Shown in pieces: positions 22,508 to 54,168 of a stretch of 64,000 bases of DNA. Position numbers and translations under genes: made by a program. Where the stretch lies: positions 2,335,501 through 2,399,500 of the forward strand of contig NC_087073.1 in assembly GCF_026151205.1 (NCBI RefSeq). The letters are read 5' to 3'. Below the pieces are notes generated by a model. That model was not told the DNA's origin. It saw nothing but the letters and a program-made list of their open reading frames with translations, and did no database searches. Origin of the DNA: Bolinopsis microptera (taxonomy: Eukaryota > Ctenophora > Tentaculata > Lobata > Bolinopsidae). Within the stretch, counting starts at the first letter, position 1. Every line of letters begins with the position of its first letter.

Positions 22508-24241
22508 CTATCGTTTTAAATGAAATACAACCTCAAAACGTTTGGTGTGAGGGAAGAGATCAACTGCCACACAACTAACAAACCTGAACGGATCACCTAG
22601 GTATCTATTAGAAGTTGGTGAACACAGATTGACAATGTTGTCTGAGATTTGTTTTATGTCACAAGACACATACACAATCTCTGAGATCATTTCGTTTTTC
22701 CTCAAGCAAGCAATAACGTCAGCGTGGACTCCGTTACGCGGGGGATCAACAATTGCTACAATCCTTGTTTCTGGTGACTTTATGATGTTGTTCACAACCC
22801 TTGGTACAGCTGACTTAGCATTGCCTGCATAAAACGCAATGTTGTTGATTTTGTTTCTCTCTGCATTTTTCTTGGCATCCTCAACAGCAGACTCAACTAT
22901 TTCAATGCCATGTACACGTTTGACGTACTTTGACAGAATAATCCCAATAGTCCCTGTTCCACAGCACACATCCAATAAGATGGTCTTGTCATCCAGCTCA
23001 GCAGTTTCTCTGATTGTCTTGTACAGCACCTCCGCTCCTGATGTGTTCACTTGGAAGAAGGAGCCTGATGTTATTTGAAAGTCGTAACCACACAGTTTCT
23101 CCAACATGTGATCTGGTCCACTGAGGTGAACAACTTCTTCTTTGCCACCCACCAGTTTGAGGAAAACTGAGCACTTTTGTCTATCGGAATAGAATTCGAT
23201 AACAGACAACTTCAAATCCTTTAACATCTCAGGGTCTAACGATCTTTTGTCTACAACAGGTGTTATCATGATGTCTTGTTGCTCTGTGGTACGGATTTGT
23301 AATGCCTTCCACACACCAGTGTTGGAAATGTTGTTATATGTGGGGAATTTGGATGTAGAAAGAAAATCTTTGAACTTTTTTACCTCCGCGATCATAAGCT
23401 CAGAACACGTTTCCTTGCATTCATCAGGAGACTGGACTGATATGTTACCGTGGCTGTATGATCCTTTCACAAAACCAATACAGTTTTCATCATTGGTTTC
23501 TGTGTTTTTACCTATAGTAAATTCACATTTGTTTCTGTATCCTGTTAGAACAGGAGATTGTTTTATTTCCGTTATTTTAAATCTGTAGTGTTCTTCAGGG
23601 AACCCAGCCTGCCACGACCGCTTTAGCAACTTTTTGTAATTATCTAAAACTCCTTGTATTTCTCCTAACTTCAACTCTAACTGCTCGCTGAGCGTCATTT
23701 CGTAAAGTGGAGCAGTTTTTTCTCTTACAGAGCGAAAGTCTTGTAATCTTTTCTCTCCACGTGCCTCATTACGAGCAAAAGGGTTCTCATCAGGTTTGGC
23801 AATATCAACTTTTAATGAATTTTTCTTCCACTGCACATTTTGTAGTTTTTCAAGTGCCTTTTGCCTAGTTGCTTCATCACGAAAGGTCACATATGCATAT
23901 GATGTTTTAAACGGCCTCTTTACTTTAACAGCTTCCAGATCATGTTTTTTCAAAAATTTTCTGACATCTGGTGCATTTGCATATTTGGGAATATTTTCCA
24001 TGCAAATTTTGAAAATTTCTGAAGTAAAATGCTCAGTCTTTGTGTATGCTAAAGGATCTAGCGTACATTTATCAGGTTCAGCATCTGTTAAAGTCTGAGT
24101 GACAGGTTTTGGATGATCTTCTGAGCTTGCAATGTTAACAGGTATCTCACTTTTCTCATTTTTTGACTCTTGGACAGAAATCTCAGGATCTAGCTTCTGT
24201 TTTTTCAGTGCAGGTTCCTCGTAGCATTCTTGTGCACTCAT
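22508..24241 (-). CDS. TRMT2A: tRNA (uracil-5-)-methyltransferase homologue A
   Basis: A 577-residue single-exon protein that uses SAM to make m5U at position 54 in the T-loop of cytosolic tRNAs. Domains: acidic and Lys-rich N terminus, RRM-like domain about 76-148 (FKICMENIPKYANA; SYAYVTF), then the TrmA/RumA-type methyltransferase. Motifs seen: SAM-binding LLDVCCGTGTIG (422-433), IVDPPRNG (497-504), the catalytic Cys in VYVSCD (C527), and the general-base Glu in FPHTKRFE (E570). All catalytic positions are present. Human TRMT2A is 625 residues with the same architecture. ATG at 24241; the upstream neighbour XRCC4 ends about 250 bp away on the same strand. Confidence 0.93.
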   Translation of the reverse strand: MSAQECYEEPALKKQKLDPEISVQESKNEKSEIPVNIASSEDHPKPVTQTLTDAEPDKCTLDPLAYTKTEHFTSEIFKICMENIPKYANAPDVRKFLKKHDLEAVKVKRPFKTSYAYVTFRDEATRQKALEKLQNVQWKKNSLKVDIAKPDENPFARNEARGEKRLQDFRSVREKTAPLYEMTLSEQLELKLGEIQGVLDNYKKLLKRSWQAGFPEEHYRFKITEIKQSPVLTGYRNKCEFTIGKNTETNDENCIGFVKGSYSHGNISVQSPDECKETCSELMIAEVKKFKDFLSTSKFPTYNNISNTGVWKALQIRTTEQQDIMITPVVDKRSLDPEMLKDLKLSVIEFYSDRQKCSVFLKLVGGKEEVVHLSGPDHMLEKLCGYDFQITSGSFFQVNTSGAEVLYKTIRETAELDDKTILLDVCCGTGTIGIILSKYVKRVHGIEIVESAVEDAKKNAERNKINNIAFYAGNAKSAVPRVVNNIIKSPETRIVAIVDPPRNGVHADVIACLRKNEMISEIVYVSCDIKQISDNIVNLCSPTSNRYLGDPFRFVSCVAVDLFPHTKRFEVVFHLKR

Positions 24242-28904: not shown

Positions 28905-31900
28905 AGGGAAATCCGTCTGAAAAAATCGATCTGCTGACACACGAAGCTTTCAGAGGATTTTTGACGTTTTTGAGTCCCATTAGGTGCCCTTTATGGCTGA
29001 CCAACTTTTCCAAACTTTTCCACGTGGCTTAAGGCCACTTTTTGCCACTTTACCACTTTTTACCACCTTTCTTATTTGTCGAATATCTTTAGTTGTGAAC
29101 ATCGTAAAAGGTTGCGAATCAATCGAGTGTGTTCATAACAAACTTTTGTTCTAACAATTTTTACGTCAGATAATAATTTAATTGGATAATTATCAATTAA
29201 CCAATTAGCAAAATTCTAAAAATTTTTTATTGGCTAAAAATGATCGGAATAGCTTAAAACACGGAGAAAAGTAGTTTTCAGAAAAAATTTGAAAATTTTT
29301 CACTTACATTTTTTTTCGAGACTTGGAAAAATTTCGAAAATTCAAAATATTTTTTCCGCCAAAAGTGACCAAATTGCATGAAACGCGGAGAAAAATGATT
29401 TTCAAAAAAAACTTAGTCAATTTTTCGTTTCAAGAATACTTAAATTACCAATATTTGTAGTTGGAGTTCAGTAAATCTCGGCAGATTTTAGTAATAATCA
29501 GGAATTACTAACTCTAAGTGGAAAGGTCTGAAACTGAAAAACGTTAAGTTTAACCATACGATCGCGATATAAGAGTTTCATCGCTAACTAATTACAATAC
29601 AGCCTTATCGATTTTCACAGAAACTGCACCAATGGCACAGTCAAGATCGAAACGATAGCCTGCTGTACTGTCATTTTATTGATTTCAATGATGAATCAGT
29701 GGGGTTAAGATAATCACATTTGTAATAAATAAAACCTCTCTGTACCGTCAATTGTACTAATCTAAACCGGCCTACCTGTATTACCAAACCTCTTCTTTTC
29801 CTCAACAATCAAACCGAGTTGTTCATATCGCATTTGGTGGGTGATGTAAACTAAGTAGTAATACATATCGAGCTATATTCAATCACAATACGACACAGTA
29901 CGTGTATATTATATGGCTCTTAATGAGGTTTATGAAACGTTCTATACCGTACACTTCTCGTTTCTCCCGTGAGAGGCCCGATATGGAGAGGTTTTACAGT
30001 TTATCACGAAAATGTCTACTTGGTCTCATGGCTCTTTGACAGCTCAAAGAAGGCAAGAAAAGACCAGAAAGCTTAGAATGTCAACTCGCAAGAGCAGGCT
30101 ACCGGACAACTGAACTCAATTTAGACATTTAGATTAACCCTAACCCTAACCCTAACCCTAACCCTAACCCTAACCCTAACCCTAACCCTAACCCTAACCC
30201 TAACCCTAACCCTAACCCTAACCCTAACCCTAACCCTAACCCTAACCCTAACCCTAACCCTAACCCTAACCCTAACCCTAACCCTAACCCTAACCCTAAC
30301 CCTAACCCTAACCCTAACCCTAACCCTAACCCTAACCCTAACCCTAACCCTAACCCTAACCCTAACCCTAACCCTAACCCTAACCCTAACCCTAACCCTA
30401 ACCCTAACCAATTAAGCTGATTGGTTAGTGGGAACTAGGTTCAATTGGGTTCAGTTGTCAGTCTTCGATCTGTCCCACATTAATCCCGAGCTGATCATCA
30501 TGGGCCCCGAATATCCTGCGGGAAGAACCTGTATTTTTACTTCACGACGTCCGGATTTCAAATCAACATCCTCAATAACATTAACAATCCTTCCTGATCA
30601 GGATCTGTCTCTATTATCAATTTCCAAAATATCCTGACTCTCGTGGAACATTTCACTGAATTAATTATTACCGGTTCTTTACTACCCCTTGCCCGACACT
30701 GTACTCGTATCTAAATCTTACCCTTTCCCGTATGTTACCCTTGTTGATTTTACTTTTAGCCGACCCTGACATATGGGGGTGATTTGAGGTATCCCGCAAA
30801 TGAAGCGGTATGCAGTACAATACAAAACAGTCACAGTAGATTTTGGAAGGTGTATTTACACTTGCTTCCTGGACCTGGCTGTTCCTCAGTTTCCCTGATC
30901 TGTTCTTGCCCTTCTTCGAACTGTAAATGAGCCATGAGACCAAGTAGACGTTTTCGTGATAAACTGTAAAACCTCTTTATACCGGGTTTCTCACGGTATA
31001 AAGCGTTTCATAAACCTCATTAAGAGCCATATAATATACACGTACTGTGTCGTATTGTGATTGAATATAGCTCGATATGTATTACTACTTAGTTTACATC
31101 ACCCACCAAATGCGATATGAACAACTCGGTTTGATTGTTGAGGAAAAGAAGAGGTCTGGTTATACAGGTAGGCCGGTTTAGATTAGTACAATTGACGGTA
31201 CAGAGAGGTTTTATTTATTACAAATGTGATTATCTTAACCCCACTGATTCATCATTGAAATCAATAAAATGACAGTACAGCAGGCTATCGTTTCGATCTT
31301 GACTGTGCCATTGGTGCAGTTTCTGTGAAAATCGATAAGGCTGTATTGTAATTAGTTAGCGATGAAACTCTTATATCGCGATCGTATGGTTAAACTTAAC
31401 GTTTTTCAGTTTCAGACCTTTCCACTTAGAGTTAGTAATTCCTGATTATTACTAAAATCTGCCGAGATTTACTGAACTCCAACTACAAATATTGGTGATT
31501 TAAGTATTCTTGAAACGAAAAATTGACTAAGTTTTTTAGTCTCGAAAAAAAATGTAAGTGAAAAATTTTCAAATTTTTTCTGAAAACTACTTTTCTCCGT
31601 GTTTTAAGCTATTCCGATCATTTTTAGCCAATAAAAAATTTTTAGAATTTTGCTAATTGGTTAATTGATAATTATCCAATTAAATTATTATCTGACGTAA
31701 AAATTGTTAGAACAAAAGTTTTTCTTCCTGATAATATGAACACACTCGATTGATTCGCAACCTTTTACGATGTTCACAACTAAAGATATTCGACAAATAA
31801 GAAAGGTGGTAAAAAGTGGTAAAGTGGCAAAAAGTGGCCTTAAGCCACGTGGAAAAGTTTGGAAAAGTTGGTCAGCCATAAAGGGCACCTAATGGGACTC

Positions 31901-31967
31901 AAAAACGTCAAAAATCCTCTGAAAGCTTCGTGTGTCAGCAGATCGATTTTTTCAGACGGATTTCCCT
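28905..31967. mobile_element. 3.06-kb foldback element carrying a telomeric array
   Basis: Two long inverted arms (28905 to about 30035, and about 30924-31967), starting AGGGAAATCCGTCTGAAAAA, flank a core with a 275-bp (TTAGGG)n block and 515 bp of single-copy sequence. The insertion falls in the LINE A RT between APL and LFILYISDM; GTAC is present on both sides (28901-28904 and 31968-31971), so the duplication is GTAC, or TA if the element starts with CAGGG. The left arm has an extra internal tandem duplication of about 80-110 bp near 29270-29430. No transposase is recognised; a minus-strand frame in the core (30668-30943) has ordinary composition but no family match. Confidence 0.85.
30135..30409 (-). 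repeat. Interstitial telomeric repeat (TTAGGG)n
   Basis: About 46 perfect CCCTAA units on the plus strand, with no variants. The array sits in the core of the foldback element. Perfection over 275 bp implies recent capture or active homogenisation, or addition by telomerase. Confidence 0.98.
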
Positions 31968-32745
31968 GTACTAGAGGTGCAAGGACAGAGCCTTGGGGAA
32001 GCCCAAACCATCCACATGAGCGTTGGAATCCGAGACTGTTGTCAACCCTCAGCCGTACTTTGCGAGACAACAGGAAGTTATTGATTATCCGCAAGATTTT
32101 TCCTTGTATTTGGTATTTGTTGAGCTTGAAAACCAGGCCTTTCACCCATACACTATCAAATGCTTTACTAAAGTCGATACATAGTAGGAAAGTAGTGAGT
32201 TTTTTCCTCTTGCATGCATCTAGAGTAGCAACTAATTTATAAAGATACCTTGCAGTATTTCTTTGAGGTCTAAAGCCTTCTTGTTCTTCGTCGAGTAAGC
32301 CCTCTAGTTCACAATGGAGCTTTATTCTTCGTTCCAAGATCTTTTCTAGAAGCTTTCCAACATATGATGATATCGATATTGGTCTGTAAGCAGAGGGGTT
32401 CATGTAATTATCCTTCCCATCCTTTTTGATGAAAGTGACATTGGATACGTCCCAGACCCATATACCAGTGTCAAGGACAAGATCAAAAAGTTTTGTTAGG
32501 ATATGAAGAGCTGACACAGGCAGATGTTTAAGGATTCTTGGATGAAGATCGTCAGTGTCAAAACTTTTAGCACTGCTATTTTGAGCCTTTAGTGCCGAGG
32601 TAACTTCCTCTAGGCCTATTTTTCCATTCAAGTGATCATTAATTACTGGGTCTAGTTGGTCAGAAGAGAACTGGGTGGATATAATGTTGTCATAGCAGCT
32701 ATCGATATCCTGTTCGAAAATACGATCAAAACTGCCTCCATTCAT
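31968..32745 (-). pseudogene. LINE A reverse transcriptase, N-terminal half
   Basis: Encodes RT fingers and palm up to the break: NPSAYRPISISSYVGKLLEK, FLLCIDFSKAFDSVW (first catalytic Asp) and GLPQGSVLAPL. The frame from the ATG at 32745 is open to the foldback insertion, after which it reads into transposon sequence. With 27093-28904 it forms one RT gene. Confidence 0.8.
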
Positions 32746-33757: not shown

Positions 33758-34279
33758 TCATAATGAATCACCATGAGGGTGCTGCCAAGGCTTAAATTGC
33801 TTTTTAACTCGAGACCCTGTCGCAGCTTCAGACTCATTACTTTTGTCAATATCACTGCTTTTGTCAATATCACTACTCTTAGAATCTAAATGTTGAAATA
33901 TCTTAGAGCGAAACTTATCACAATCAATTTTAGGTCTCTGTAATAGTATCTGAAATATTGTCATTAATAGAGCTAGCTGGAACACTACACCCTGAAATGT
34001 TAGCATTAGTACCTCCTGCCACCTGATTGTTACAACCTGAAACAGCGTTAACACTAGCACAGATTTCAACAATTTTCAAGGCCTCACAGCCACTCTTAGA
34101 CAACAAATTTCCACAATTGCGAGCATTCAAAACATAAATAGTCAAAATTGTTGACACCCTGTTGAACATTAATTTAGCACTAAAGTACCCTCTAAGTTTC
34201 AATGGTTCATCACTCCCATACGCAAAAATGCGGGTATTAGTTTCAAATAAAGGGTAGGACCCTGATTGACACAAAATAT
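33758..34279 (-). pseudogene. Gag-protease element, 3' part of the protease region
   Basis: Continues the reading frame cut at 40884. Retropepsin-like segments are seen: FETNTRIFAYGSDEPLKLRG, then NARNCGNLLSKSGCEALKI. The frame stops at 33930; a second overlapping frame continues to 33758 (FRSKIFQHLDSKSSDIDK). No RT follows. Coding is interrupted here by the LINE B insertion. Confidence 0.7.
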
Positions 34280-35021
34280 CATAAGTTGACCTATCTATTC
34301 AGTTAAACAAAAATTTCAGTTAAACAAAAATTTCAATTTTATGCCATTTATTACAGATTAAACAAGTTTACAATAAATCAATTTGATATTTAACGGAATC
34401 CTAATTCAATGTGCAGTATGGTTGTCACTCTTTAAATAGATTAGATATAGGTTGACGGGGCAAAGGAGTGTGCGTGCTGTTCGCTATTGCTCACACCAAA
34501 CGGCAACCTAGTAAATGTTTTGTATGAACACCGGTCTCCATCACGACACAAAATTAGGATTGTAGAATTTATTGTATAACTATTAGTGCAGTGGAGGTAG
34601 CGGTGTGGTGCATTAATAGAGTGACAGCCTACTGATTTAGAGTTGTTTTTAAGTGAGCATAATGGGTGTATTTTTGGATCTAATGGCAACTTTAAAACTT
34701 GTTCTTTTAATCATTTATTAAATATCAGTTTAAAAATATATAAATCTGGAATCTGTTCACTCTGTGAACCAGTCCTAAAAAAAAAATTCCAAAAACCCTC
34801 CTAAATTAAATATTAAAAACGTCTCAGTAATGGAAATAGTCATACAATTAAGAAATTATCCAAATTCTTAATATCTACCTAAGAGAAAAATACCTACCTA
34901 AGTCAATTTCTACCTGTAATACACTAAATATTAGGTTAAATACATAGATGGTGGAGTCAGCACACATTTACCAAAATCAAAATTGTTTAATAGGAGGAGC
35001 CTGTGGGCCGAGATCACTGGA

Positions 35022-38000
35022 TTAAATTTGATGAAGGGGATTGTTTTCAAATGACAGCTGCATTATGTCATAATCGCTTGTGGTCCATGCCGAATCATTA
35101 TAAGCATGTTGCAGCTTTAGAAGTGCCTTTTTCAGGCGACTTTTAGCAAGGCTAATCTTGTAGGAGTAGTCAAAGAGCTTAAGTTTAGGTGAAATTGTGT
35201 TCCAAATTTTGGTGGATCTTGATATAAAGTCATTAGATGGGAGTTGTGAAATGATAGTGGTTTCCTTTCTAGAAGATGACTGATAATGCTGTTGCAGTGA
35301 TGCTGGGCACCTTAGTTTTAGTATTTTAAAAACTTCCATAAATGTGTGATATGTATATAAATTTTTGAAAGCCAGGATGTTTTGTTGCTTGAAAAGTGGT
35401 TTACAGTGCTCTAGTTGGAAGAATGTATGGTCAAGTGCCTGGCTGTCAAACTCTCTTGTTCTTGCACATGTAAGGAACTTGTTTAGGTATGCCTCTTTAT
35501 CACCAAAGAGGACCCGTACACAGTGCTTCTGAGACAGCCAGATACTTGCTGTCCTAAAGAGTGCTGCATCACCCCAAACTGAGATACAATATGTGAGGTG
35601 GGATTCAAATAGTGTGTGGTAGAGGTCTTTATGGAGTTCCTTTGGTACAGAGTCCCTAATTCTATTTAAGGTGGCAGAGGCATAGTTTAACTTTCGTTTA
35701 AGTGCTGTTATATGAGGCCCCCAGGAAAGCTGTTCGTCAATAACAACTCCAAGAAACTTAGTTGCTTTGGTTTTTTTAATTGGAAAGCCATCAATATGGA
35801 GTTGAAGCGAATCTGGCAATTCTACTGGTTTACTAGCCTTTGGTTTAAAATGCATATAACAGCACTTTGACATGTTGATGTGAAGTTTGTTAAGGATCAT
35901 ATACTTTTTTATACAGCTTAGCAATTTGTTGCCTTTCTCATAAGCTTCTTCTACAGTTTTTCCATCAATAAAAATGTTGGTGTCGTCAGCAAATAGTATG
36001 AAGGTTCCTAAATCCGAGGAATTGGCAATATCATTTATGTATAGAAGAAAAAGGAGCGGTCCCAAAACAGAGCCTTGTGGAACTCCATATTTAATGATAA
36101 GGTTTTCGGATTTTTCATTAAGGACTTCTGTATACTGTGTTCTATTTGATAAGTAGCTTTTAATAAGACAGTTTGCATTGCCTCTTATTCCATACCTATC
36201 TAGTTTTGTTAGGAGTGTACTATGGTCGATTGTATCAAATGCTTTACTCAAATCTATAAATATTCCTAGAACATGGTTTCGTTTTTTTATGCTATCTTCA
36301 ATAATCCTAACAGAGTAGTTAACAGCATGGCTAGTAGAATGGGACTTGCGGAAGCCAAATTGGTTTTCATCAAGGATATTTTGTGACAGAGCGAAACTGT
36401 AGATACGGCTGTATATCACTTTTTCAAATATCTTACCAAATATAGGCAGTGTAGAGACAGGTCTGTAGTTTCCTACATCCTCTTGGTTTCCTTTCTTAAA
36501 TATGGGAGTAACTTTCCCAACTTTCAAAACATCAGGAAATACCCCGCTCATCATGAGTGTGTTGAAATGTTGGGCTAAAACAGGGCAGATTAAATGAGCT
36601 GACTTTTTGATTATACGGATCGGAATATCACTAGATTTGCCATTTTCCAACTTGGAAATTATTTCCATGAGCTCAGTATGTGAACAGTCAGATAGGAATA
36701 TAGAGTTATTGTTGGATGGCAGGAGGTAGTCTTCAAATGTTGAAAATTCAGAAGCCTGTATAGGCAGGTCAGCTATTGATTCATTTAGAGTGGAGGCAAT
36801 TGAGTTAAAGTATTTGTTGAACTCGTTTGCAATAACCCTTCTATCTGTTATTTTTCTGTTGTCGATTATAAATGAGGGTTTTATAGTCTTTTTACACTTC
36901 CCTCTAAGTTCATTAATGATCTGCCATGTCTTCTTACGGTCGTGCTTATTTTCTATGATTTGGTTGCAAGAGTAAGTATTTTTTGCAGAGTTAATTACAG
37001 ATTTGAGGATCCTTCGGTATACTTTGAAGGTTTGTTCGAGAACATGGTCTCCATCAGGGTTTGCCTTAGTTTTAGATGTAATCCAGTTATCTTTTAATTC
37101 ATGTTTTTTTTCAACGGCTGCTGAGATACTATCTGTTATCCAGGGGTTATTGATAGGATTCCGTTTAGTAGTTTTTGGCTTTACAAGTTTGCATGTTGCA
37201 TCAAGTACACGATCAAATAATTTAGTAAAATCCGAGAATTCATGAGAAGTGTGGAGCTTTAAGAGGTCAGTGTTCAGTAGGGTTAGGAATTTATTAAGGT
37301 TGGCATTACTGAAGTCGTAGTACTGGACATGTTTTTCACTTTTTGGACCAACCTCAAATTCGATGTCAGTGAATTCAAATGTTGGAGCATGGTCACCAAT
37401 TCTATCTGTTATACAACCTGAGAGAACACAGTTACCAGGGTCATTCGTGAGGATGTTGTCAATACAAGATGGTTTGCAATTTGGTCTCTCATGTGTAGGT
37501 ATCGAAATAACTGGAGCGAAACCATTTCTAAATAAGCATTCTTCAAAAAGAGTATAGTTGCCATGACCAGCATCACCATTCACTTTAAGAAGGTCAACAT
37601 TAAAGTCCCCCATTATACGTACACCAGATTTAGGGAGGAGTTTACATATGTGATCAAATGACTTAAGGAAATTATGAATGTCACCATTAGGAGGGCGATA
37701 GATGACCCCTGAGATGAGTGTGAGCTTGCTGGATGATTGAGTGATCTTAACAAAGATTGATTCAATATCAGGCGTGCAGTAGCCAAGATTTTCTATGACT
37801 TCTGCATTAAGGTGATTTGCTACATACAGGGCAACACCAGTCCCTTTCAGCTTGTTCTCCTGAGTGACCTGATAAAAACTGTTGTATTGCGGTATTCTGT
37901 ATAGTTCTTTAAGAGGTTCATCTGTGTTTGTTTCAGCGATACCAATTACAGAGAAATTTAGTTCAATCCGCTTGAGTTCAACATTAAGACAATCGAAGTT

Positions 38001-38417
38001 GGTTTTGTTACCATCTAAGTTGACAAAGTAGGATGTGAATTTTGAGTGTGTGGATGAAGGATTACATGAGTTTTGAAGCTCCCTGACTACCCTATTAAGA
38101 TCAGTTGTAGAGTAGCTCTGACATTGGTCTAGAACATTCGAAATTTTTTGAATAGTTTCGTCATCACATCCACCTTCATCATCGTAGAATTTATCACCAC
38201 CATCACTAATCATCCCAGAGAAGGGGTTGTAGCGTGGTATCACGTTCAGTGAACAAACCTTACATACCCATAGACCATTGGTGGGGCAGAAACCTGCTAC
38301 TTTAAAACATTTAGTATGAATAGCTGTCCGACAGGCTTCACATTCCAGTAGGGGCTGCCCAATGTTGATGGGCCTTGAGCATGGCTCACAGACCTCCTTA
38401 ATTAATTTCATGATCAT
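35022..38417 (-). CDS. LINE B ORF2: PHD, AP-endonuclease, reverse transcriptase
   Basis: About 1131 residues from the first ATG (38417), which lies 13 nt after the ORF1 stop; the frame is open a little further upstream without an ATG, so reinitiation is likely. Order: a Cys/His zinc finger of PHD type at the N terminus (CEPCSRP, CEACRTAIHTKC, WVCKVC), an exonuclease-endonuclease-phosphatase domain (SVIGIAETNTDE; SGVIYRPPNG; RIMGDFNVDLL; ITDRIGDHAPT), then RT with NYRPVSTLPIFGK, FIDLSKAFDTIDH, GVPQGSVLGPLLFLLYIND and FADDTNIF (catalytic Asp pair). The C terminus resembles CR1/L2-group elements. It nicks target DNA and copies the element RNA there. No stop or frameshift seen. Confidence 0.93.
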   Translation of the reverse strand: MIMKLIKEVCEPCSRPINIGQPLLECEACRTAIHTKCFKVAGFCPTNGLWVCKVCSLNVIPRYNPFSGMISDGGDKFYDDEGGCDDETIQKISNVLDQCQSYSTTDLNRVVRELQNSCNPSSTHSKFTSYFVNLDGNKTNFDCLNVELKRIELNFSVIGIAETNTDEPLKELYRIPQYNSFYQVTQENKLKGTGVALYVANHLNAEVIENLGYCTPDIESIFVKITQSSSKLTLISGVIYRPPNGDIHNFLKSFDHICKLLPKSGVRIMGDFNVDLLKVNGDAGHGNYTLFEECLFRNGFAPVISIPTHERPNCKPSCIDNILTNDPGNCVLSGCITDRIGDHAPTFEFTDIEFEVGPKSEKHVQYYDFSNANLNKFLTLLNTDLLKLHTSHEFSDFTKLFDRVLDATCKLVKPKTTKRNPINNPWITDSISAAVEKKHELKDNWITSKTKANPDGDHVLEQTFKVYRRILKSVINSAKNTYSCNQIIENKHDRKKTWQIINELRGKCKKTIKPSFIIDNRKITDRRVIANEFNKYFNSIASTLNESIADLPIQASEFSTFEDYLLPSNNNSIFLSDCSHTELMEIISKLENGKSSDIPIRIIKKSAHLICPVLAQHFNTLMMSGVFPDVLKVGKVTPIFKKGNQEDVGNYRPVSTLPIFGKIFEKVIYSRIYSFALSQNILDENQFGFRKSHSTSHAVNYSVRIIEDSIKKRNHVLGIFIDLSKAFDTIDHSTLLTKLDRYGIRGNANCLIKSYLSNRTQYTEVLNEKSENLIIKYGVPQGSVLGPLLFLLYINDIANSSDLGTFILFADDTNIFIDGKTVEEAYEKGNKLLSCIKKYMILNKLHINMSKCCYMHFKPKASKPVELPDSLQLHIDGFPIKKTKATKFLGVVIDEQLSWGPHITALKRKLNYASATLNRIRDSVPKELHKDLYHTLFESHLTYCISVWGDAALFRTASIWLSQKHCVRVLFGDKEAYLNKFLTCARTREFDSQALDHTFFQLEHCKPLFKQQNILAFKNLYTYHTFMEVFKILKLRCPASLQQHYQSSSRKETTIISQLPSNDFISRSTKIWNTISPKLKLFDYSYKISLAKSRLKKALLKLQHAYNDSAWTTSDYDIMQLSFENNPLHQI

Positions 38418-38430
38418 AGTTATGTGTCGG

Positions 38431-39403
38431 TTAGGTTGGACCAGTGGATCCAACCCTCTGTGCTGACTCCCTAGACACCTTTTCCTTCAGAAACACACAG
38501 TTTTTCATGTGGCTTACAAACTTAGCTAAACCTCTACTTCCTAAGTGAATCGTGTCGTTACCCCTTGTGAACTTAACCGATAATAGCTTATTGTTATCTA
38601 AAAAACCATACATACCCTGAAACCAAATATTAGGAAAACAGTTCTTTATCATCTCCTGTACCAAGTTGTTGTAGAGCATTATATTTTTATTCATTTCATG
38701 GATTCTTGATGGTAAAACAGGTACAACAAAAATGTTAGTAAGTGGACACAATTGACGTATTTCAGTTAGTTTGTTCTTTAAAGTTGACACTGTCTCGTGG
38801 ATATCTGAGACATTTCTTACGTTTTCACAGCGTAGATCGTTGGTACCACACATAAGGAAAGCGTTGGAGAATCCAGCACACAGGTGTGGATCGATGTCTT
38901 TGACACGGGCAGCCTTGACTCGTTTACCAGGGAAAGAATGACCAACTTTACCTGCACCATCCCCAAAGTTGACATCTTTGGTATTCGAATCACCGATTAA
39001 AACGATGCTTCGTCGAGACTGGCTGCTGAGAGATCTGAAGGTGATCGAAAATCTCTCCTCTGTTGGGTTATCATCAGGTAATTTTGGCACACCGTGGCGG
39101 TGCCAATTTTGTGAAGACCTTGTCATAGTGTAAAGTGAGTTAGACTTCACATCAAGCTCAATAGGATCTAGGTCTTTGTCTTGTTTGGATTCAAAAAGCA
39201 CAGTTCTAGTCGCACCAATTGAGATCGTGACGATTTTCGAGTTGGCAAGAATAGTGGATTCATCATCAGAATGCATAGCTAGGTAGCTTTGGGATGGAGA
39301 GAGTCTGTGTGAGGAAGGGTAGTGGTTAATGAGGACCGAGTTTGGCTTGTGCTCGAGTTGTAGTTCTGAGGAGAACCTGTCAATAATAGTGATGGAATAA
39401 CAG
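38431..39403 (-). CDS. LINE B ORF1b: AlkB-type dioxygenase and SGNH hydrolase
   Basis: The frame is open from about 39403 to the stop at 38431 but has no ATG before the one at 39276, which would start inside the AlkB metal site. Motifs upstream of that ATG: NSVLINHYPSS (substrate or 2OG-site Asn-x-Tyr) and then AMHSDDE (HxD). After it: a distal His in NWHRHGVP and ERFSITFR (RxxxxxR, binds 2-oxoglutarate). So all AlkB catalytic residues are present. SGNH hydrolase follows: VLIGDSNT (Ser nucleophile), MCGTNDLR (GxND), and DTIHLGS (Asp/His). AlkB proteins remove alkyl groups from nucleic acids; SGNH esterases occur in CR1 ORF1. This frame is -1 relative to ORF1a and overlaps it by about 120 nt, so it is probably expressed as its extension, or split by a mutation. 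Confidence 0.82.
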
Positions 39404-40202
39404 GTCTAGGTTGTTCTCTGAAGTTAAGCTGAGGGGATGCATTTGTTCTTCCTTTGAACTCCTGAATTTCATTGTTAAGGTCTTCTAGTCGAGCATTCAG
39501 GGATGTAATGTCGATGCTCGGAATTGACCTTTCAATGGTTTCTTTAACTGATTCACTTATCTTCTGGAGCAATGAATTTTCCAGGAGGGTGCTCTCGTTG
39601 AGTTGAACTGCTGTGGCACAGGTAATGGCTTCTTCAGCAAGAATTTTTTCTTTTTTAGCAGATGGGTGGTTCTTAGGCCTAGGAAAGATGCAAGTGTAAC
39701 ACCAGGGACATAGCCATTTTTGGCTGATGCAGTCTAAATCACTCTGGGAGAGTTTATTGGTACCAGGTAGATTACCGCAAGAGGCATGCCATGATTGTTT
39801 ACAGTCTGAGCACTGTATTACCCAGTCTTTTCCGTCTAGGGAACTGCTACATGGGCAAGAGGTCTTTTTAGTAGATTCTGACTTTTTCTTCGTCTGATCA
39901 CTACTGTTTTTCTGCTCATTGGAGCTTGTTGAAGTTGACTTGGGAGTAGTAGATTTGTTTGCGAGGGGACTGGCTTGTCCTCCTTTCGCCAGAGGACTTA
40001 CACCACGTGGGCTTTGACGACGTTTGGCTTGTAGGTTCGAGGACTTCTGGGTGGGTGATCCAGAGGATAGAGTTTTCTTTTCTGTGTTTTTCTGCATTAG
40101 TGTATGGTTAGCAAGGAGCACATGATGAGATCGGGACCAGGGCACCATAGAACCAGCCAGCAGCCTGAAAATAAGATGATGAGAGTAAAAGAGTTTTGAC
40201 AT
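39279..40202 (-). CDS. LINE B ORF1a: PHD finger and coiled coil
   Basis: A 307-residue frame from ATG 40202. The Ser/Lys/Thr-rich N terminus (residues 30-115) is probably disordered and nucleic-acid binding. A PHD-type zinc finger follows (CPCSSSLDGKDW, CSDCKQSWHASC, WLCPWC), then helical sequence that could form a coiled coil (NARLEDLNNEIQEF). The last 40 residues are low-complexity Ser/Thr, while the overlapping -1 frame over the same bases encodes the conserved AlkB N-x-Y region, so the true product probably shifts frame near 39350-39403. An acceptor-like TTATTTTCAG lies at codon 13, so translation may start at a later Met. Confidence 0.75.
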   Translation of the reverse strand: MSKLFYSHHLIFRLLAGSMVPWSRSHHVLLANHTLMQKNTEKKTLSSGSPTQKSSNLQAKRRQSPRGVSPLAKGGQASPLANKSTTPKSTSTSSNEQKNSSDQTKKKSESTKKTSCPCSSSLDGKDWVIQCSDCKQSWHASCGNLPGTNKLSQSDLDCISQKWLCPWCYTCIFPRPKNHPSAKKEKILAEEAITCATAVQLNESTLLENSLLQKISESVKETIERSIPSIDITSLNARLEDLNNEIQEFKGRTNASPQLNFREQPRPVIPSLLLTGSPQNYNSSTSQTRSSLTTTLPHTDSLHPKAT

Positions 40203-40883
40203 ATGAGTGAGTGATATAAAGAAGAAAAGTAATTTGAAATCAAGATGAGCAGTTTTTAAAGTAAAAAGAAGAACATAGACTTATCAGATGAATGCAAAAT
40301 GTGTTTTTGTGATGTGTTTTTTGCTTGGTGTCATGGGAGGGGCAAAAGGGCAAGGGAATGGAGGGGCGGGGAAGCGGGATGGGCTGCACTGGGCAAGGGG
40401 AGACAAATATTGTTTTTATTAATTTGTCTAAAGTAGATTTGTGTATTATTTTTAGGGTGGGCTGATTTTTTTGTAAAGAAAAAAGAGGAGTATATAATAT
40501 ATAATACAGAACATGGATAGAAATGATTTTTAATGACGCATAGAGGTTAACACTACAACACTACTATAAACAATTATTCAAGAACGTCCATGCAGTCCAG
40601 AGTACCCGCAACAGGTGATGGGAGTGAGGAGTTGGGCTAGGGTGGGGCAATGAAGAGATGAGTGGTGTGTGTCTTGATGGAGGAGATGCAGATGTGACAT
40701 GAATCTAAGAAGAACTCATCTTAATATCGAGGCTGATAACCAGTCTTCTGATGCCACTGGTCCCGAGAGCTCACATGCACCCCGTGCAAGTTGTTTACAG
40801 CTGCATTTCTTTAGGTTGCGGGTACTCTTGGCTTACATTGCACATCCTCAAATTATTTGTTATATAGTAGTGTTGAAAGTATT

Positions 40884-41971
40884 AAAATATTTACAGAGGC
40901 CCCGGTGTCAGGCAGAAACTGCACGGGGACCTTATTGTCAATAAGAATGTTCACTCTCCCCTTCAACTTACTGGCATCAGAAGCAGCAAAGACCCACATA
41001 TCTCTCTCCGTAGCAGCCTGTAACGACTGTGCCACCTCAACTTGTTGTTCTGTCTGTTCATACTCCTGGCCTTCACCCTCATACGTCACATTGTTAGCTC
41101 CTGACCGACCACCACGCTGCCCATTGTAACCTCTGCTTTGATTACCTCGTTGTCCATTATAGCCTCGGGAACCATAACCTCTTGTACCTCTCCAGCCACC
41201 CCTTTGACCTCTACCAAACCCTGGGTTTCCTTTGCAGAATTCTTTGAAGTGTCCATAACGCTTACAACTTAGGCACTGATGATCTCTAGCCGGGCAACTC
41301 CCTTCATGTGGATACACTCCGCCACATTTGTAACACTCCAAGTTTCTAGAACGACCCTGAGACGACCCTCTTCTAGCTCCTCTATCAGAATTACCTCCAA
41401 ACACCGCAAACGCTGGCTCTTCTTTTATCCTCATAGACGATCCAAGCTTGGTAGAAGACTCAATTCCCAAGCCTTTCTGAGTAAGCTCATTCAAATCTAA
41501 ATTCTCTGACAGGGCCTTCTCTCTTATCGCCGTGTTAGTCGTCCCAAACACTACTTGATCCCGGATGTGTCTGTTCTTGTCTCCAGCATTGAAACCACAA
41601 CTGCTTACGCCAACCTCACATCTGTGCACAAAATGAGCGAAGCTTTCACCTTCTCGCTGACTTAGGTTTCTGTACTGGAATGTTTCATAAGTTGCATTCT
41701 TGCTCACCTTCATCTTTTTATCCACCACGTTTCTCGCATGTTGGTATTCTGAAACATCAGTTGTTTCATCCTCCTTTTTAGCTTTTGTCTCACTCTTATT
41801 TAGCATGTAGACTTCTTTCACCTTGGCTCCCCCGCAAGTAATAAATAGCCCCAACTTCCTAGTATCATCTTTCTCTCCCAGTCCCATCCCCATAATGAAG
41901 AACTCGAGATCCTCGACCCATTCCTCATAATTCTGTCCCTCAGCAAATACCCTCATACCCACGTGTGCCAT
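40884..41971 (-). pseudogene. Gag-protease element, gag and protease active site
   Basis: From the ATG at 41971, just 14 nt after the 5' LTR. A capsid-like helical region (GESFAHFVHRCEVGVSSCGF), two zinc knuckles (CYKCGGVYPHEGSC and CLSCKRYGHFKEFC), a Gly/Arg-rich box with repeated RGYNGQRG, then the aspartic protease signature FLPDTGASVNIL. The frame is cut at that point by the LINE B insertion and resumes at 34279. Ty3/gypsy-like by knuckle and protease style. Confidence 0.85.
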
Positions 41972-46149: not shown

Positions 46150-46345
46150 ATCAGTGGCGTAACGTTGCCAGTTGGCGCCCCCCGCTGAAAAAGCGCCCCC
46201 CTGCTGGCGCCCCCTCCCCTTTTGGTGCCCCTCCCTAAAATTGAACAAATTGGGTGATTTTAGAGGATACGCCGGTTAAATCACAAAAAAGTGTGTATCT
46301 AGAGCAAAACGCACAGTAAGACGGCGCCCCCCCCCCCCCCCCGCC
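46150..46345. repeat. Repeat with GGCGCCCC modules and poly-C
   Basis: Starts CAGTGGCGTAACGTTGCC, a sequence style seen at the ends of hAT-like elements, then GGCGCCCC occurs four or five times, followed by about 16 C at 46329. No matching inverted end was found. 46350-46900 has nothing else but an AATAAA at 46880. Confidence 0.4.
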
Positions 46346-46925
46346 CAGCATCACTGCAACAGCATTACCAGCCATCTTAAAACCAACTTATTATGTACTA
46401 AATGGAATCAAGAATATTATTGACTATATTTGATAACGATGAATTGTAAATTTCGATTAATTTATATTTTTTCGGTCTCCAATTATTGAACTGCGGAAGC
46501 TGGTTGCCTCAACAATGTTGACTATGCATGGTATGACTGAATTGTAAACACGTGATAATTGAACGAAAAATAAATGATGAACATGATTCAAAAACTGTAA
46601 ACCACCAAATGAATTATCGCTCAAATTTAAATAAGTATTTAAACAAAAACCATCATGTGCCGTTAAGCAGCAGGGCGCGGCTCATCTGGGCCACAGCAAT
46701 TCGGCGAAAATGGGTTCGAAAAAGCCACTATTGGCACTCGAGTCCTTGATCTTTCCGATGGTTCACTGGGGCTTTTGAGCTGCCGTCCTTCAGCTTCTGT
46801 AAACTGAAATTACTACCAATCCAAGTTGAGGCTATCAGCCGACGCGCGGCTTTTATGGTTATATATGATATGTTTAATCTGTAATAAAGATCAAAACACA
46901 AAATTTGTTTCTCTCTCTCTCTCTA

Positions 46926-47913
46926 GAAAGGAAACCACTCTCATTTCACAACTCCCATCTAATGACTTCATATCAAGATCAACAAAAATTTGGAGCTCAA
47001 TTGCACCTAAACTTAAGCTTTTTGACTACTCCTACAAGATTAGCCTTGCTAAAAGTCGCCTGAAAAAGGCACTTCTAAAGCTGCAACATGCTTATAATGA
47101 TTCAACATGGACTTCAAGCGATTATGACATAATGCAGCTGTCATTTGAAAACAATCCTCTTCAACAAATTTAATCCAGTGTTCTCGGCCCACAGGTTCCT
47201 CCTATTAAAAATTTTTGATTTTGGTAAATGTGTGCTGACTCCACCACCTATGTATTTAACCTAATATTTAGTGTATTACAGGTAGACATTGACTTAGGTA
47301 GGTATGTTTCTCTTAAGGTAGATATTAAGAATTTGGTAAATTTCTTAATTGTATGACTATTTCCATTTTTGAGACGTTTTAATTATTGAGACGTTTTAAA
47401 TATTTGATTTAAGAGTTTTTTTTTTATAGGACTGGTTCACAGTGTGAACAGATTCCAGATTTATATATTTTTTAAGTGATATTTAATAAATGATTAAAAG
47501 AACCAATTTTAAAGTTGCCATAGTAAAGCCTTTAGGTCCAAAAATATACCCATTATGCTCACTTAAAAACAACTCTAAATCAGTAGGCTGTCACTCTATT
47601 AATGCACCACACCGCTTCCTCCACTGCACTAAAAGTTATACAATAAATTCTACAATCCTAATTTTGTATCGTGATGGAGACCGGTGTCCATACAAAATAT
47701 TTACTAGGTTGCCGTTTGGTGTGAGCAATAGCGAACAGCACGCACACTCCTTTGCCCCGTCAACCTATATCTAATATATTTAAAGAGTGACAACCATACT
47801 ACACATTGAATTAGGATTCCTTTAAATATCAAATTGATTTATTGTAAACTTGTTTACTCTGTAATAAATGGCATAAAATTGAATTTTTGTTTAACTGAAT
47901 TTTTGTTTAACTG
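46926..47913 (+). mobile_element. LINE B copy, 5'-truncated
   Basis: Encodes the last 82 residues of ORF2 (RKETTLISQLPSNDFISRST...), a few substitutions from LINE B, then the whole 3' UTR and the duplicated TTTTTGTTTAACTG tail. The 5' joint follows a (CT)n stretch. It ends at the start of LINE C sequence. Confidence 0.9.
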
Positions 47914-47984
47914 ATGGTAGCTCTATACACGATTCTCTAGAAGCCATCCAAAAGTCCATCAAGAACCTCAAAGACAACGATAGC

Positions 47985-48915: not shown

Positions 48916-50427
48916 GGCCAGAGGGGGGGGTAAGGGGTCAAAAAATTCTACCAAAATATTATTTTCTAAATCGATTTAATTTTTAATGACAAAAACATCA
49001 CCGCTATTCACATATTTGTAGCTGATTAACTTTATTTTATAATTGAGGTTAACCGATTTTTACAAAATTGACTATACAATATTGAGGTTAATAAAATTGA
49101 GGTTAATATTTTATTACACGCCATAATTTTTTGTTATTTCGGTCAGCAAATGTAAACTCTAAATTTTAGGTTCATAATTATCAGAAAAATTAATATCCAA
49201 ACGTGATTAAATGAGGTTAACCTCGTCTTTTAGATATAGCGAGAATAGATCAAATGATAGAGTTATTATTTTCATCGTAAGTTTACGGTATACACATTTC
49301 TAAATAGATGACATGTTGATTGACTTTCTTTTATCTTGGGAAAATGAAAAAAATGAGGTTAACCATCACATTTTGGTACCGTAGGGAATATACATACGAT
49401 TCTTACTTATGTTATGTACCACAATATCGAAGTGAGGTATCTATTGGTATCACGATGCCTACAACTATAATCACGTGACAAAGGTGATTTGAACTGACCA
49501 TATTTTAGTAGAAGATTTTACCCGTAAATGGCTAAAAAATGAGGTTAACCTCTCATTTTTTGAATATCTGACCAGTCAATTACATGTTAACCTCAAAAAC
49601 TTAATCGTTGTACTGTGCAAATGTTTTACTACATACATAATAACATATTGATAAACCAATCCCAGTGTTATATGGTCTAAAGCGAGGTTAACAACCAAAT
49701 TTTAAGCAGTTAGTGTTTACAGGAAGTCTTGGTTAACCTCATTTTATACAATACAAGGACATTAACTACTGAAAGTGGCTAAAATCATTTAGGGGACGGC
49801 CAGGTCTGATCAATCAAACGTTATTAAGTGTATAAAAAGTCCTAACTAACGAACTGTGATAAATTCCAGTGAATACTCAAAATTTTGAAAACACTAAAAT
49901 CCATTTATCTCAAAACACACTTTTGTGGTTTTCAATTCCTTAGTTGAGAAAACCAGCCACCCCCTGATATTGAGATTTGGTACAGTGGTTCCTTGGACAA
50001 CTATCTAGATATCTGGTGCAGCGATTTTTTTTATTTGACTCAGTTCTCGAATTATGAGGTTAACCAATTAAAATTTTCGAATTTTTGACCTGGTTAACCT
50101 CATAATTTGAGAACAGAGTAAAAAAAAAAAAAATGCTGCACCAGATGTGAGGATAATTGTCCAAGGAACCACTGTACCAAACCTCAAGATCAGGGATTGG
50201 CCGGTTTTCTCAACTAAGGAATCGAAAGGTCAAAAAAGTTACAGCCGTTTAAAGTTCCAGTTTAACATGTAATTGCAGGTAAACCTCAAAATTGAGCGCG
50301 CGATATCTCAGAAGCGCAAGGTCAGATTTTGATCCGGTTTTTTTCTTTTTGTTCGTCTCCAGTAGCTATTATCAAATATGCAAAAACTACAAAAGTGCCA
50401 TTTACCCCCCCCCCCCCCCTCTGGCCA
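48916..50427. mobile_element. 1.5-kb element with TAA duplication and GAGGTTAACCTC motif array
   Basis: Inverted ends GGCCAGAGGGGGGG / CCCCCCCTCTGGCC, with TAA on both sides, as in PIF/Harbinger elements. It interrupts LINE C between FHL and RSPAPCETD. Inside, GAGGTTAACCTC or half of it occurs about 12 times (for example 49044, 49213, 49355, 49541, 50054), and 49940-50050 pairs with 50110-50225 as an imperfect inverted repeat. No transposase seen. Confidence 0.75.
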
Positions 50428-50430
50428 TAA

Positions 50431-51681
50431 GGTCACCTGCTCCATGTGAAACAGACCAAGAACAGCTTCTCCTAGATGCACAGAAGCATGCAAGTGTAGA
50501 CGACCCTAAGTCCAAGCACATTCTGTCGTATGTCCCAGAATTTGTAGATGAAAAATTGAACTCTGAGCTTTTAGTTTTCTTAGACCAACAGAAGGAAGCC
50601 TTTGATAGTAACTCCGAAAATGGGCATGGGGTTCTGAGCTTTGGCGAACCTTATCAATACTCCGGGGCTAAAGCTGAAAAACCGAAATCGACTGACGATC
50701 CTGAGGTTCTTAATGAGCTTGTCTCCAAGATAAAGGAAGAATGTCCCAGTTCAACAATCAATCAGTGCTTGATAAATCGGTACACCGATGGGAACAGCTT
50801 TCTTCCTAAGCACTCTGATAAGAGCAATCACTGGTCCATGATAGTTCCATATTTACAGTATCCTTAGGTGGTGATTGCTCTGTCAAATTCACAAAAAAGG
50901 CTCAGCTTGAAGGAGAGGTCGTAGAGGCAATACAGGGACGCGGACGTAGTCTCTATGTCATGAGCAAACAGTCCCAGTTTCTTTGGAACCACCGAATTGA
51001 CAAGAGCACAGAAACGAGGGACTTAAGATACAGTATTACCTTCCGCTACGTAAGCAGGAGCACTAATGCGACACTGATAATTGGTGACTCCAATACCCGG
51101 TACCTCAGATTTGGGTCTGGAAAAGGAATGTATTTGGACACCGCTTGCCTGGAAGAAGAATAGAATGCTTCACCATAAATAAGCTAGATCCTACCCTCTG
51201 TGTAGGTTATAAAAACATTATAGTTCATTGTGGAGTAAACAACATCAAGAAAGATGGGGGGAATCTTAAATATTGGGTAAATGAGCTGAACAAAAAGCTC
51301 AAGACTATAAGTGAATTGTGCCCTTACGCTAAAATAATTGTTTCACCTATACTGCCAACTAGGTCCTCCTTGCTAAACGAAAGGGCTATGGAGTATAACA
51401 GGTTTTTATTTGGATACTGTGAAACCAATTCTAGAATAGGAACATTAGATTTTAATAGCTTTGTTGACGAAGATGGTCTGCTGAATCAGCAATGTTGTAG
51501 ATATAAGAAGCCGGATGACCCAATTCACCTTGGATCAAACGGTATATTTAAACTCTCCTGGGCTATTGCTCACAAGATATTTGGTAGCCTTGTTGACGGG
51601 AAATCATTCAGTGATGTTGTTAATGCCAAAGCCAAAGGCAGATTTTCCCCACGACCACGTAGATCTATATTTCAGTCATGA
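50431..51681 (+). pseudogene. LINE C ORF1 remnant: AlkB dioxygenase and SGNH hydrolase
   Basis: Three frames cover one domain string: 50431-50866 (AlkB N part: ILSYVPEFVDEKLNSELL, CLINRYTDG with N-x-Y, KHSDK with HxD), about 50845-51163 (FTVSLGGDCSVKF; LYVMSKQSQFLWNH with distal His; RYSITFR with RxxxxxR; IIGDSNTRY), and 51145-51681 (PGRRIECFTINKLDP, CGVNNIK, DPIHLGS). So the same AlkB plus SGNH order as LINE B, with catalytic residues kept, but two frameshifts (near 50855 and 51140) and Asn in place of the SGNH GxND Asp. Basic C terminus (GRFSPRPRRS). Confidence 0.8.
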
Positions 51682-51989: not shown

Positions 51990-53375
51990 CTGGACTTCTA
52001 CACAATAAAAGAAAGCGGTTGTGATTAGATCTTCGAAAGTCTTTGCATCGTTTATTTACATCAATTCTGAGAAATTATATCATTAAAGTAACTACAACAA
52101 ATACGAATCATATACAATTGAGAATAAATACAAACTAAAAGCAGTGGGAAAATCTGATGAACTGAAATTTAAAAAAGAAACTGAAAGCCGTTAAAAATGT
52201 ACTCTTATCTTATCTCTTATCTAAATACTGATAACTGATTCTCGGAAAATCACTTAAAATCACAACAAAAACCTGTAAAATTTATACTTAAGTAAAAAAT
52301 GTAATATGCACGTCTCTGGAATAATGGTATAACTAAATAAAATCTACAAAATATACTAAAACTAAAACTAAGCTCCGGCAGATTTAAAAAGTAGATGGTT
52401 ACTATCAAGGGTGTTCATACCCCCAAACCGTTCAAGGGTTTTCAATTGGGTCTGGTAGAACCCCTCTCTAGCTTCCATAGCCTTTTCTTTGTCTGCTTTA
52501 CTAATATTAGGCTCAAATACTAAAGCGTCTACTATAATGACAGAAAGGTGCTTACTAAGTGAGGAATTATAGCAGGCTATGGTACTAAAATCTAAATCAT
52601 GATCAATATCTAAAAAATGGTTAACTAATTTACAACTTCTTATACCTTTCTTTATGTGACTCTTATGGTTAGAGAATCTCTTAGGGAGATTTGAGGTAGT
52701 ATAACCGACATACGACTGTTTACAAGTCTTACACTCCATTAAATAAATGAGGTTATAACTCTGACAAGATATATACTTAGTTATAGGGAAAACTTGTTTA
52801 GAATGGTGACTACTAAAATTGGAACAGGGGGACAGGAAATTTTGCTTACAAACATAACATTTACCACAAGCATGGCACCCTGGGTCGACAGCCCCGGGAA
52901 CCGCCCTTAGACTTTCGGAGTCTGGTTCCTGGATCTGGCTTGCAGTTGTTTCTCTCTCATTATCACAGTTTAAAGTTCCACTGGCACGGTACTTATTGTG
53001 TACAAGCATGCCACCGATAGTTTGATTCTTTCGATGACTCACGAATACACTGTCCGCACGTACCAGCTTCTTCAGGGCCGGATCAAGGTTGAGAAGGTGC
53101 TTATACTTATGGATAATGCCCCCCATGTTGGGAAGTGCTGGATTTTGATCCATCACCATGGGTATTAAACAGGCAGTCGACTCATCCTTGTCTTTAAGGG
53201 TATACAAGTTTTTCCTATTAGCTATATCACTAAATTTGTTAAAGGCATCTTCTATAATACTGGAATGATAACCTCGGGCTAGAAGGTAACGTGTATAGAC
53301 CTCTCTCTGCTCCAAGAAGTTAGTGTCTTCACTGTTGTTCATATATACATATATATATCGTCTCGCTTTATATAT
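51990..53375 (-). mobile_element. Penelope-like element, 5'-truncated
   Basis: Carries only the C-terminal endonuclease part of a Penelope-like retroelement and about 370 bp downstream. It separates the LINE C ORF2 start from its PHD finger (KICEICCCCIKP resumes at about 53378). Ends are approximate. The 51700-51990 stretch has an internal inverted motif TGGTGTCAA/TTGACACCA. Confidence 0.7.
52368..53342 (-). CDS. GIY-YIG endonuclease, C-terminal part of a Penelope-like protein
   Basis: From the ATG at 53342, about 324 residues. N part: YLLARGYHSSIIEDAF and VSHRKNQTIGGML, typical of the region between RT and endonuclease in Penelope-like elements. Then a CxxC-rich linker (CHACGKCYVCKQNFLSPC) and the GIY-YIG nuclease: NLIYLMECKTCKQSYVGYTT, KRFSNHKSHI (Arg and His), REGFYQTQLKTL (metal-binding Glu) and GGMN (Asn). 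In a whole element this nuclease opens the target for reverse transcription. RT is missing (5' truncation), so the frame is a relic even though it is uninterrupted. Confidence 0.8.
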   Translation of the reverse strand: MNNSEDTNFLEQREVYTRYLLARGYHSSIIEDAFNKFSDIANRKNLYTLKDKDESTACLIPMVMDQNPALPNMGGIIHKYKHLLNLDPALKKLVRADSVFVSHRKNQTIGGMLVHNKYRASGTLNCDNERETTASQIQEPDSESLRAVPGAVDPGCHACGKCYVCKQNFLSPCSNFSSHHSKQVFPITKYISCQSYNLIYLMECKTCKQSYVGYTTSNLPKRFSNHKSHIKKGIRSCKLVNHFLDIDHDLDFSTIACYNSSLSKHLSVIIVDALVFEPNISKADKEKAMEAREGFYQTQLKTLERFGGMNTLDSNHLLFKSAGA

Positions 53376-54000
53376 AGTAAGATATGTGAAATTTGCTGCT
53401 GCTGCATTAAACCTGTACGAGCTGGACACCCTTTCATAATTTGTCAGATGTGTGACAAAATAATGCACAAAAAATGCAAAACTATTGACAACATAGTTAA
53501 ATTTCGAGATGAAATATACTGCAAAGTCTGCATTGAAGCCAACGATATTATTCGATACAACCCTTTCTACCAAGCTCCCCACTTTGCTAACAACGGCCTT
53601 ATTGATGATGAGCCAGTTAATTAAATTATATTGAATCTATCTACAACAGCTCAAAAATTCTTGAAAACTACAAAACATTCTCCATAACAGAGTTGAATGC
53701 CACCATCTTGCCTGGAAATTCAGTCGAATATATGTCCACTTTATTCGTCAACATTGATGGGAATGCATCAGACTTTGACAACTTTGCAGTTGAGCAGTCA
53801 AGTATAAACCACAAGTTTTCTGTTATTGGTCTTGCAGAAACAAACACTGATGCTGACAATGGAACACTATATCAGCTTAGTGGATACTCCTCGTGTTACC
53901 AATCCCGTTATTTCTGTCAAGACAAAAACCAGTTTAAGGCTAAAGGATCAGGAGTTTGTCTTTACCTGAACAACTCTCTAAAACTTGTAGTTAATAATTT
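53375..54000 (+). pseudogene. LINE C ORF2 start: PHD finger and partial endonuclease
   Basis: PHD: CQMCDKIMHKKC and IYCKVCIEAND, followed by RYNPFY as in LINE B ORF2 (RYNPFS). After a frame break near 53620 the endonuclease domain begins (LFVNIDGNASDFDNF, FSVIGLAETNTDADN, KAKGSGVCLYLNN), matching LINE B. Homology stops at about 54000, before the catalytic GDFN region. Confidence 0.75.
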
Positions 54001-54168
54001 ATTAATTTTGGCGGTAAGATATTTATATTTTTCCATATAGTGATTTGATACTTTGTACCAGACATGTGTTATGATGTTATGTCATAATTTTTACTTACTT
54101 ACTTACTTACCATATATATTGCTCTTCAAGCAAAAACACCATGTAATCAGCTCAAAAGAGAAATGCTC

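Follow-up and report, generated by a model that had tools for sequence, protein, structure and literature searches.

Domain architecture of the LINE B ORF1 protein

In a 64,000-nucleotide stretch of the genome of the ctenophore Bolinopsis microptera (contig NC_087073.1, positions 2,335,501 to 2,399,500; hereafter the window), the first open reading frame (ORF1) of a long interspersed nuclear element, LINE B, joins an AlkB-type dioxygenase domain to an SGNH hydrolase. It is virtually certain that a large set of LINEs shares an ORF1 protein (ORF1p) arranged as PHD-like finger, coiled coil, AlkB domain and SGNH hydrolase, ahead of a second frame (ORF2) encoding a PHD-like finger, an endonuclease (EN) and a reverse transcriptase (RT). 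The minus-strand frame 39405-38431 is open and carries, in this order, the AlkB motifs LINHY, MHSDDE, WHRHGVP and RFSITFR, followed by the SGNH motifs GDSN, GTND and DTIHL; every motif named in a preliminary description of the region can be read there. The frame matches Pfam family PF13532 (2OG-FeII_Oxy_2) with E=3.8e-15 over profile positions 92-194 of 194. This match, whose absence the description had taken as grounds for giving up the assignment, is significant, and the AlkB-type identity is borne out by it together with the predicted fold of relatives and comparative evidence. The HxD...H iron ligands and the RxxxxxR residues are all present in a C-terminal AlkB remnant (39022..39393, minus strand, delimited by motifs and Pfam), in which every named motif is kept. 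The hydrolase domain (38488..39009, minus strand) is placed by Pfam and alignment, with its fold taken from a relative; the Pfam GDSL/SGNH matches in this frame are sub-threshold, and the catalytic Ser, Asn, Asp and His of an SGNH-fold esterase are in place. Profile, structure and comparative evidence all agree with the claimed fusion of the two domains in one frame.

The first piece of ORF1 (39279..40202, minus strand, 307 aa) lies in a frame other than that of 39405-38431. It contains a C4HC3 PHD-like finger (39699..39857, minus strand; Pfam PHD E=0.0011, short of the cut-off) and a predicted helical, coiled-coil stretch (39444..39665, minus strand), which is aligned to helices 198-244 and 251-271 in the model of P0001, one of the homologues described below. 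Two frames of the window align with P0001, one to its residues 133-289 at 74% identity and the other to its residues 367-691 at 90%, and the two alignments meet at 39390-39393 (minus strand), the junction of a deletion and frame shift within the AlkB domain. At its C-terminus, LINE B ORF1 ends in GSTGPT (38433-38415, minus strand); a PT end occurs in 43 of the 114 homologues, and GSxxPT in many. What is constrained here may be the RNA spanning the stop codon of ORF1 and the start of ORF2, which lies 13 nt further on.

ORF2 runs from the first ATG at 38417, past the ORF1 stop, over 35022..38417 on the minus strand, while the open frame itself reaches back to 38453, with 1143 codons counted from a TTG. 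It begins with a PHD-like finger (38253..38390; E=0.007, short of the cut-off), followed by a match to endonuclease family PF14529 (37383..37703; E=2.2e-5, just short of the cut-off) and by the reverse transcriptase RVT_1 (35739..36497; E=4.5e-38), all on the minus strand. LINE B thus shows the EN and RT of a LINE in an ORF2 downstream of ORF1, with the EN match just short of the cut-off. That the AlkB domain sits in the ORF1 of a LINE bearing PHD-like fingers, as had been proposed, is supported by profile, structure and comparative evidence. Over 85 codons compared at the ORF2 end, there are eight synonymous and eight nonsynonymous codon differences (nonsynonymous divergence dN 0.047, synonymous divergence dS 0.183). 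The PHD/esterase ORF1 and a 3′ end made of repeat units hint at, but do not establish, a CR1 or L2 lineage. A further minus-strand fragment at 31840-32745 belongs to the RT of another LINE (RVT_1 4e-23; 31% identity to LINE B ORF2 over 217 residues).

Conservation of the AlkB–SGNH fusion

A single homology search over 1211 candidates yielded 114 proteins at E<=0.001, ranging in length from 272 to 722 aa. PF13532 is precomputed for 112 of them, the exceptions being P0054 and P0096, and a C4HC3-like motif occurs in 54 of the 114, including 50 of the 58 proteins of at least 560 aa. Of the 107 rows with letters at all six AlkB residues (HxD...H, RxxxxxR and the Asn of NxY), 104 have them intact; hence, the expected conservation of HxD, H and RxxxxxR holds, here among homologous proteins instead of genomic copies. 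Furthermore, the iron ligands, the 2-oxoglutarate (2OG) ligands and the NxY Asn all fall within the 16 best conserved of the 446 columns that hold 80 or more letters. In the SGNH domain, the catalytic Ser, Asn, Asp and His are all retained in 103 of 107 rows.

The same pair of domains was observed a second time in the window. LINE C, on the plus strand, has a frame-shifted ORF1 divergent from that of LINE B (50421..51681), in which an AlkB domain read in two frames is followed by an SGNH domain (alignment span 50517-51648). The start of its ORF2 (53409..54001, plus strand) comprises a PHD-like finger and part of an endonuclease in two frames, with 32-37% identity to LINE B ORF2. An AlkB–SGNH pair therefore stands ahead of a PHD-EN ORF2 in two divergent LINEs of one window. 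In a tree of the SGNH domain (110 rows), LINE B pairs with P0001 (support 100/100), and LINE C pairs with P0109 (98/94) within a separate 12-row lineage (90/83), a long-branch warning attaching to P0109 plus LINE C.

Clustering of 110 rows (four of the 114 were left out for coverage) gives 85 clusters at 80% identity and ten at 50%. Distances computed from the AlkB domain and from the SGNH domain are correlated (r=0.84, 101 rows, 13 of the 114 being left out for coverage), and the correlation persists when P0112-P0114 are removed (r=0.80, 98 rows); in either case none of 999 permutations reached the value. As judged from sequence divergence, the AlkB and SGNH domains are co-inherited over a long and deep divergence. 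The two divergent LINEs, the 85 clusters and the congruent distances point to an old inherited fusion. It might be supposed instead that a host AlkB gene or fragment was caught beside or inside one LINE copy, as the automatic labels of some homologue rows, for example 'alkylated DNA repair dioxygenase AlkB', and the broken state of the window copy could be taken to indicate; this accidental neighbourhood is rejected on the same three grounds and is regarded as extremely improbable.

No animal other than the ctenophore Mnemiopsis leidyi is named among the homologues. Its protein P0044 is uninterrupted, and P0080 and P0096 look like gene models fusing part of ORF1 to other sequence. P0112-P0114 match at 24% identity and have GTS instead of GDS. 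P0110, filed under the bacterium Moritella sp., is a partial ORF1 of the family with a PHD-like finger and an AlkB domain, and is likely to represent animal contamination of that assembly. One scan each of viral contigs and of genome contigs produced 22 pattern matches, none of which was confirmed as a relative. A tblastn search against phages returned no relative, and among plasmids a single record, from Erythrobacter aureus, matched the AlkB part only (30.7% identity); records close to the window's genome may be missing from the collections searched.

Comparison with known ORF1 proteins and AlkB-bearing elements

In a survey of 448 Jockey-superfamily elements (PMC4120745), the tabulated ORF1 domains are RRM, CCHC, Tnp22, PHD, CC, esterase, lz and zf; AlkB is not among them, according to Table 1 and a term search. 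The domain set of LINE B matches no ORF1 type listed there, and esterase-type ORF1 is confined in that survey to two vertebrate groups. The paper on zebrafish ZfL2-1 (PMC3905857) aligns transposon esterases from the CR1, RTEX and Penelope clades of chordates, cnidarians and sponges. ZfL2-1 itself, an esterase-type CR1/L2 ORF1 protein (PDB 4c1b), resembles LINE B in having an SGNH hydrolase after a coiled coil and ahead of an EN-RT ORF2, and a 68-row profile gave a weak match to 4c1b (E=0.0086); however, a term search of its paper finds no mention of AlkB. The PHD-bearing CR1/L2 ORF1s likewise have a PHD finger in ORF1 or at the ORF2 start, whereas theirs is tabulated with RRM, CCHC or Tnp22, or alone (PMC4120745), and that of LINE B with AlkB and SGNH.

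AlkB domains are described in two other kinds of RNA-templated or retrotransposing element (PMC9289625). The AlkB open frame of an orchid Ty3/gypsy element also encodes a retrotransposon-borne AlkB-type dioxygenase, for which demethylase activity, with erasure of N6-methyladenosine (m6A), is reported in vitro, but it is a separate, ALKBH5-like frame in a plant long terminal repeat (LTR) element, unlike the ALKBH2/3-like ORF1 fusion of LINE B. In the Alphaflexiviridae, Betaflexiviridae and Closteroviridae, plant RNA viruses, an AlkB domain lies within a protein of an RNA-templated element, and AlkB-bearing replicases of plant RNA viruses were among the matches in our viral fold search; there, however, it is part of a replication protein and not of a LINE ORF1, and the available text names no SGNH or PHD partner (PMC9289625). 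Provisionally, with the literature thinly covered, the AlkB–SGNH ORF1 is considered a new ORF1 type outside those tabulated in PMC4120745.

Type of AlkB domain and its possible role

P0001 matches PF13532 with E=2.9e-23, and a whole AlkB domain, consisting of the double-stranded beta-helix and the N-terminal lid, is present in the predicted folds of both P0001 and P0109. Compared with solved structures, the domain is nearest to human ALKBH2/ALKBH3 in sequence profile and predicted fold, and HxDDE, H and RxxxxxR are common to both. The human proteins are host repair enzymes, with approximately 21-23% identity over the fold alignment, and lack the PHD finger, coiled coil and SGNH domain. The lesions 1-methyladenine (m1A) and 3-methylcytosine (m3C) stop reverse transcriptases. 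Given this nearness to ALKBH2/3, the retained HxDDE and the block that such lesions impose on RTs, removal of m1A/m3C is favoured as the substrate and use of the LINE domain, a proposal that we place at, or marginally below, an even chance of being right.

Of all that is involved in LINE replication, the contribution of ORF1p is the least understood. In the proposed mechanism, ORF1p would gather on element RNA and multimerise through the coiled coil, the SGNH part may tie the particle to lipids by analogy with what is proposed for ZfL2-1 of zebrafish, and the Fe(II)/2OG domain would take Watson-Crick-face methyls (m1A, m3C) off element RNA, complementary DNA (cDNA) or exposed target DNA, such that reverse transcription would not be blocked. 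That many relatives keep the AlkB domain whole, active site included, suggests a role in clearing methyl damage or marks from the RNA or DNA of these elements themselves. Animal LINEs of an old and diverse class would then carry their own dealkylase beside a lipid-handling hydrolase in ORF1p and clear RT-blocking methyls from the RNA template, cDNA or target DNA, which is put forward tentatively, the balance tilting slightly against it. As a whole, the best explanation, combining the architecture with the demethylating role, stands evenly poised between right and wrong.

If the proposed role is true, such a retrotransposon must demethylate nucleic acid in order to move, with template repair built into its particle, and the claim is directly testable through the conserved active site of a well-understood dealkylase. 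It would also add animal LINEs to the selfish elements with AlkB, so far plant RNA viruses and the LTR element of an orchid, and would bear on m1A/m3C damage or marks as a limit on reverse transcription in cells.

Two other uses of the domain have to be weighed. The AlkB domain could remove a regulatory mark of the host, either m6A from element RNA or N6-methyladenine (6mA) from DNA, and so evade control by the host, which has been proposed for the AlkB of the orchid Ty3/gypsy element; this is rather unlikely, as both profile and fold place the LINE domain closer to ALKBH2/3, whose HxDDE it keeps, and the 41 sequences listed at E<=0.01 in the profile search include neither ALKBH5 nor FTO. With an ALKBH2/3-like site in the sequence, repair of alkylated template RNA would fit better than m6A erasure. 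Alternatively, the AlkB fold could serve mainly as the nucleic-acid-binding module of ORF1p, with catalysis unneeded. Pfam finds neither RRM nor CCHC in P0001 and five other proteins at E<=0.1, and the RepBase esterase ORF1 proteins are reported to lack RRMs and any further structural RNA-binding domain (PMC3905857), a gap that such a module would fill. Pure binding, however, does not require the Fe(II) and 2OG ligands that are kept in 104 of 107 rows, and we judge this use unlikely.

Several observations weigh against the preferred reading of a conserved, demethylating AlkB–SGNH ORF1p. The preliminary description was right about the C-terminal AlkB half and its motifs in the window copy, but missed that the N-terminal half, approximately 77 codons, is deleted and the frame shifted there; the whole beta-helix with its lid is absent from this copy, and its AlkB part is, on its sequence, probably inactive, with ORF2 still open. 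Among the homologues, an AlkB key residue is lost in P0034, P0068 and P0109, the last being the nearest relative of LINE C and having an Asp to Tyr change, and an SGNH key residue is lost in P0064, P0073, P0080 and P0096. The C4HC3-like motif was not found in eight of the 58 proteins of at least 560 aa, nor a PHD motif in P0112-P0114. The link to an EN-RT ORF2 is established for two elements only, both in the window. In addition, the ALKBH3/2 folds rank above ALKBH5, ALKBH6 and FTO by only about 3 Z units, which does not fix the substrate, and both activity and substrate of the AlkB domain are points that we infer.

Insertion site and ends of LINE B

LINE B is read as a single minus-strand insertion of 6587 bp (34299..40885), of which the LINE itself accounts for about 6 kb (34299 to at most 40885). 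Its bounds follow from the flanks, which, when joined at 40886 and 34298, give a frame uninterrupted across a protease motif. The interrupted minus-strand frame (40886-41971 plus 33900-34298) looks like an LTR-retrotransposon gag-protease, with zinc-knuckle-like and DTGAS motifs recognised by eye; no Pfam family was matched in 41971-40856 at E<=0.01. In a comparison of the LINE B 3′ flank with 40200-40960, no common word of at least eight bases was found as a target-site duplication, and a shorter one is possible.

Near the 5′ end of the insertion, nested inverted repeats pair 40556-40568 with 40863-40875 and 40594-40612 with 40815-40833 (40556..40875 overall). The 13-mer GAGTACCCGCAAC occurs twice in the window, in opposite directions, both times inside these repeats, which are either a small element of the foldback type or a structure of the 5′ end. 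Given these repeats, some of the outer 5′ ~330 bp (about 40556-40885) may have come from another, small insertion, and the 5′ end assigned to LINE B is therefore provisional. The 3′ end consists of approximately two copies of a 17-bp unit (34298..34335, minus strand). A 5′-truncated sister copy on the plus strand (46922..47914; 92.4% identity over 995 columns) ends in the same units, as is characteristic of LINE copies that are truncated at the 5′ end and have one common 3′ end, and a 36-bp piece at 46343-46378 belongs to the same copy family.

Other features of the window

A minus-strand open frame with a GIY-YIG nuclease domain (52368-53582; PF01541 E=5.7e-7) largely fills the stretch that separates the two LINE C frames, which are on the opposite strand. 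It is perhaps a later insertion into LINE C, and it could belong to a Penelope-like element. Two genes elsewhere on the minus strand point to an animal host: a TRMT2A-like tRNA uracil-5 methyltransferase with an RRM is encoded at 22508-24241 in a single open frame of 577 aa, and a P-mevalo_kinase family protein is encoded at 21651-22226.
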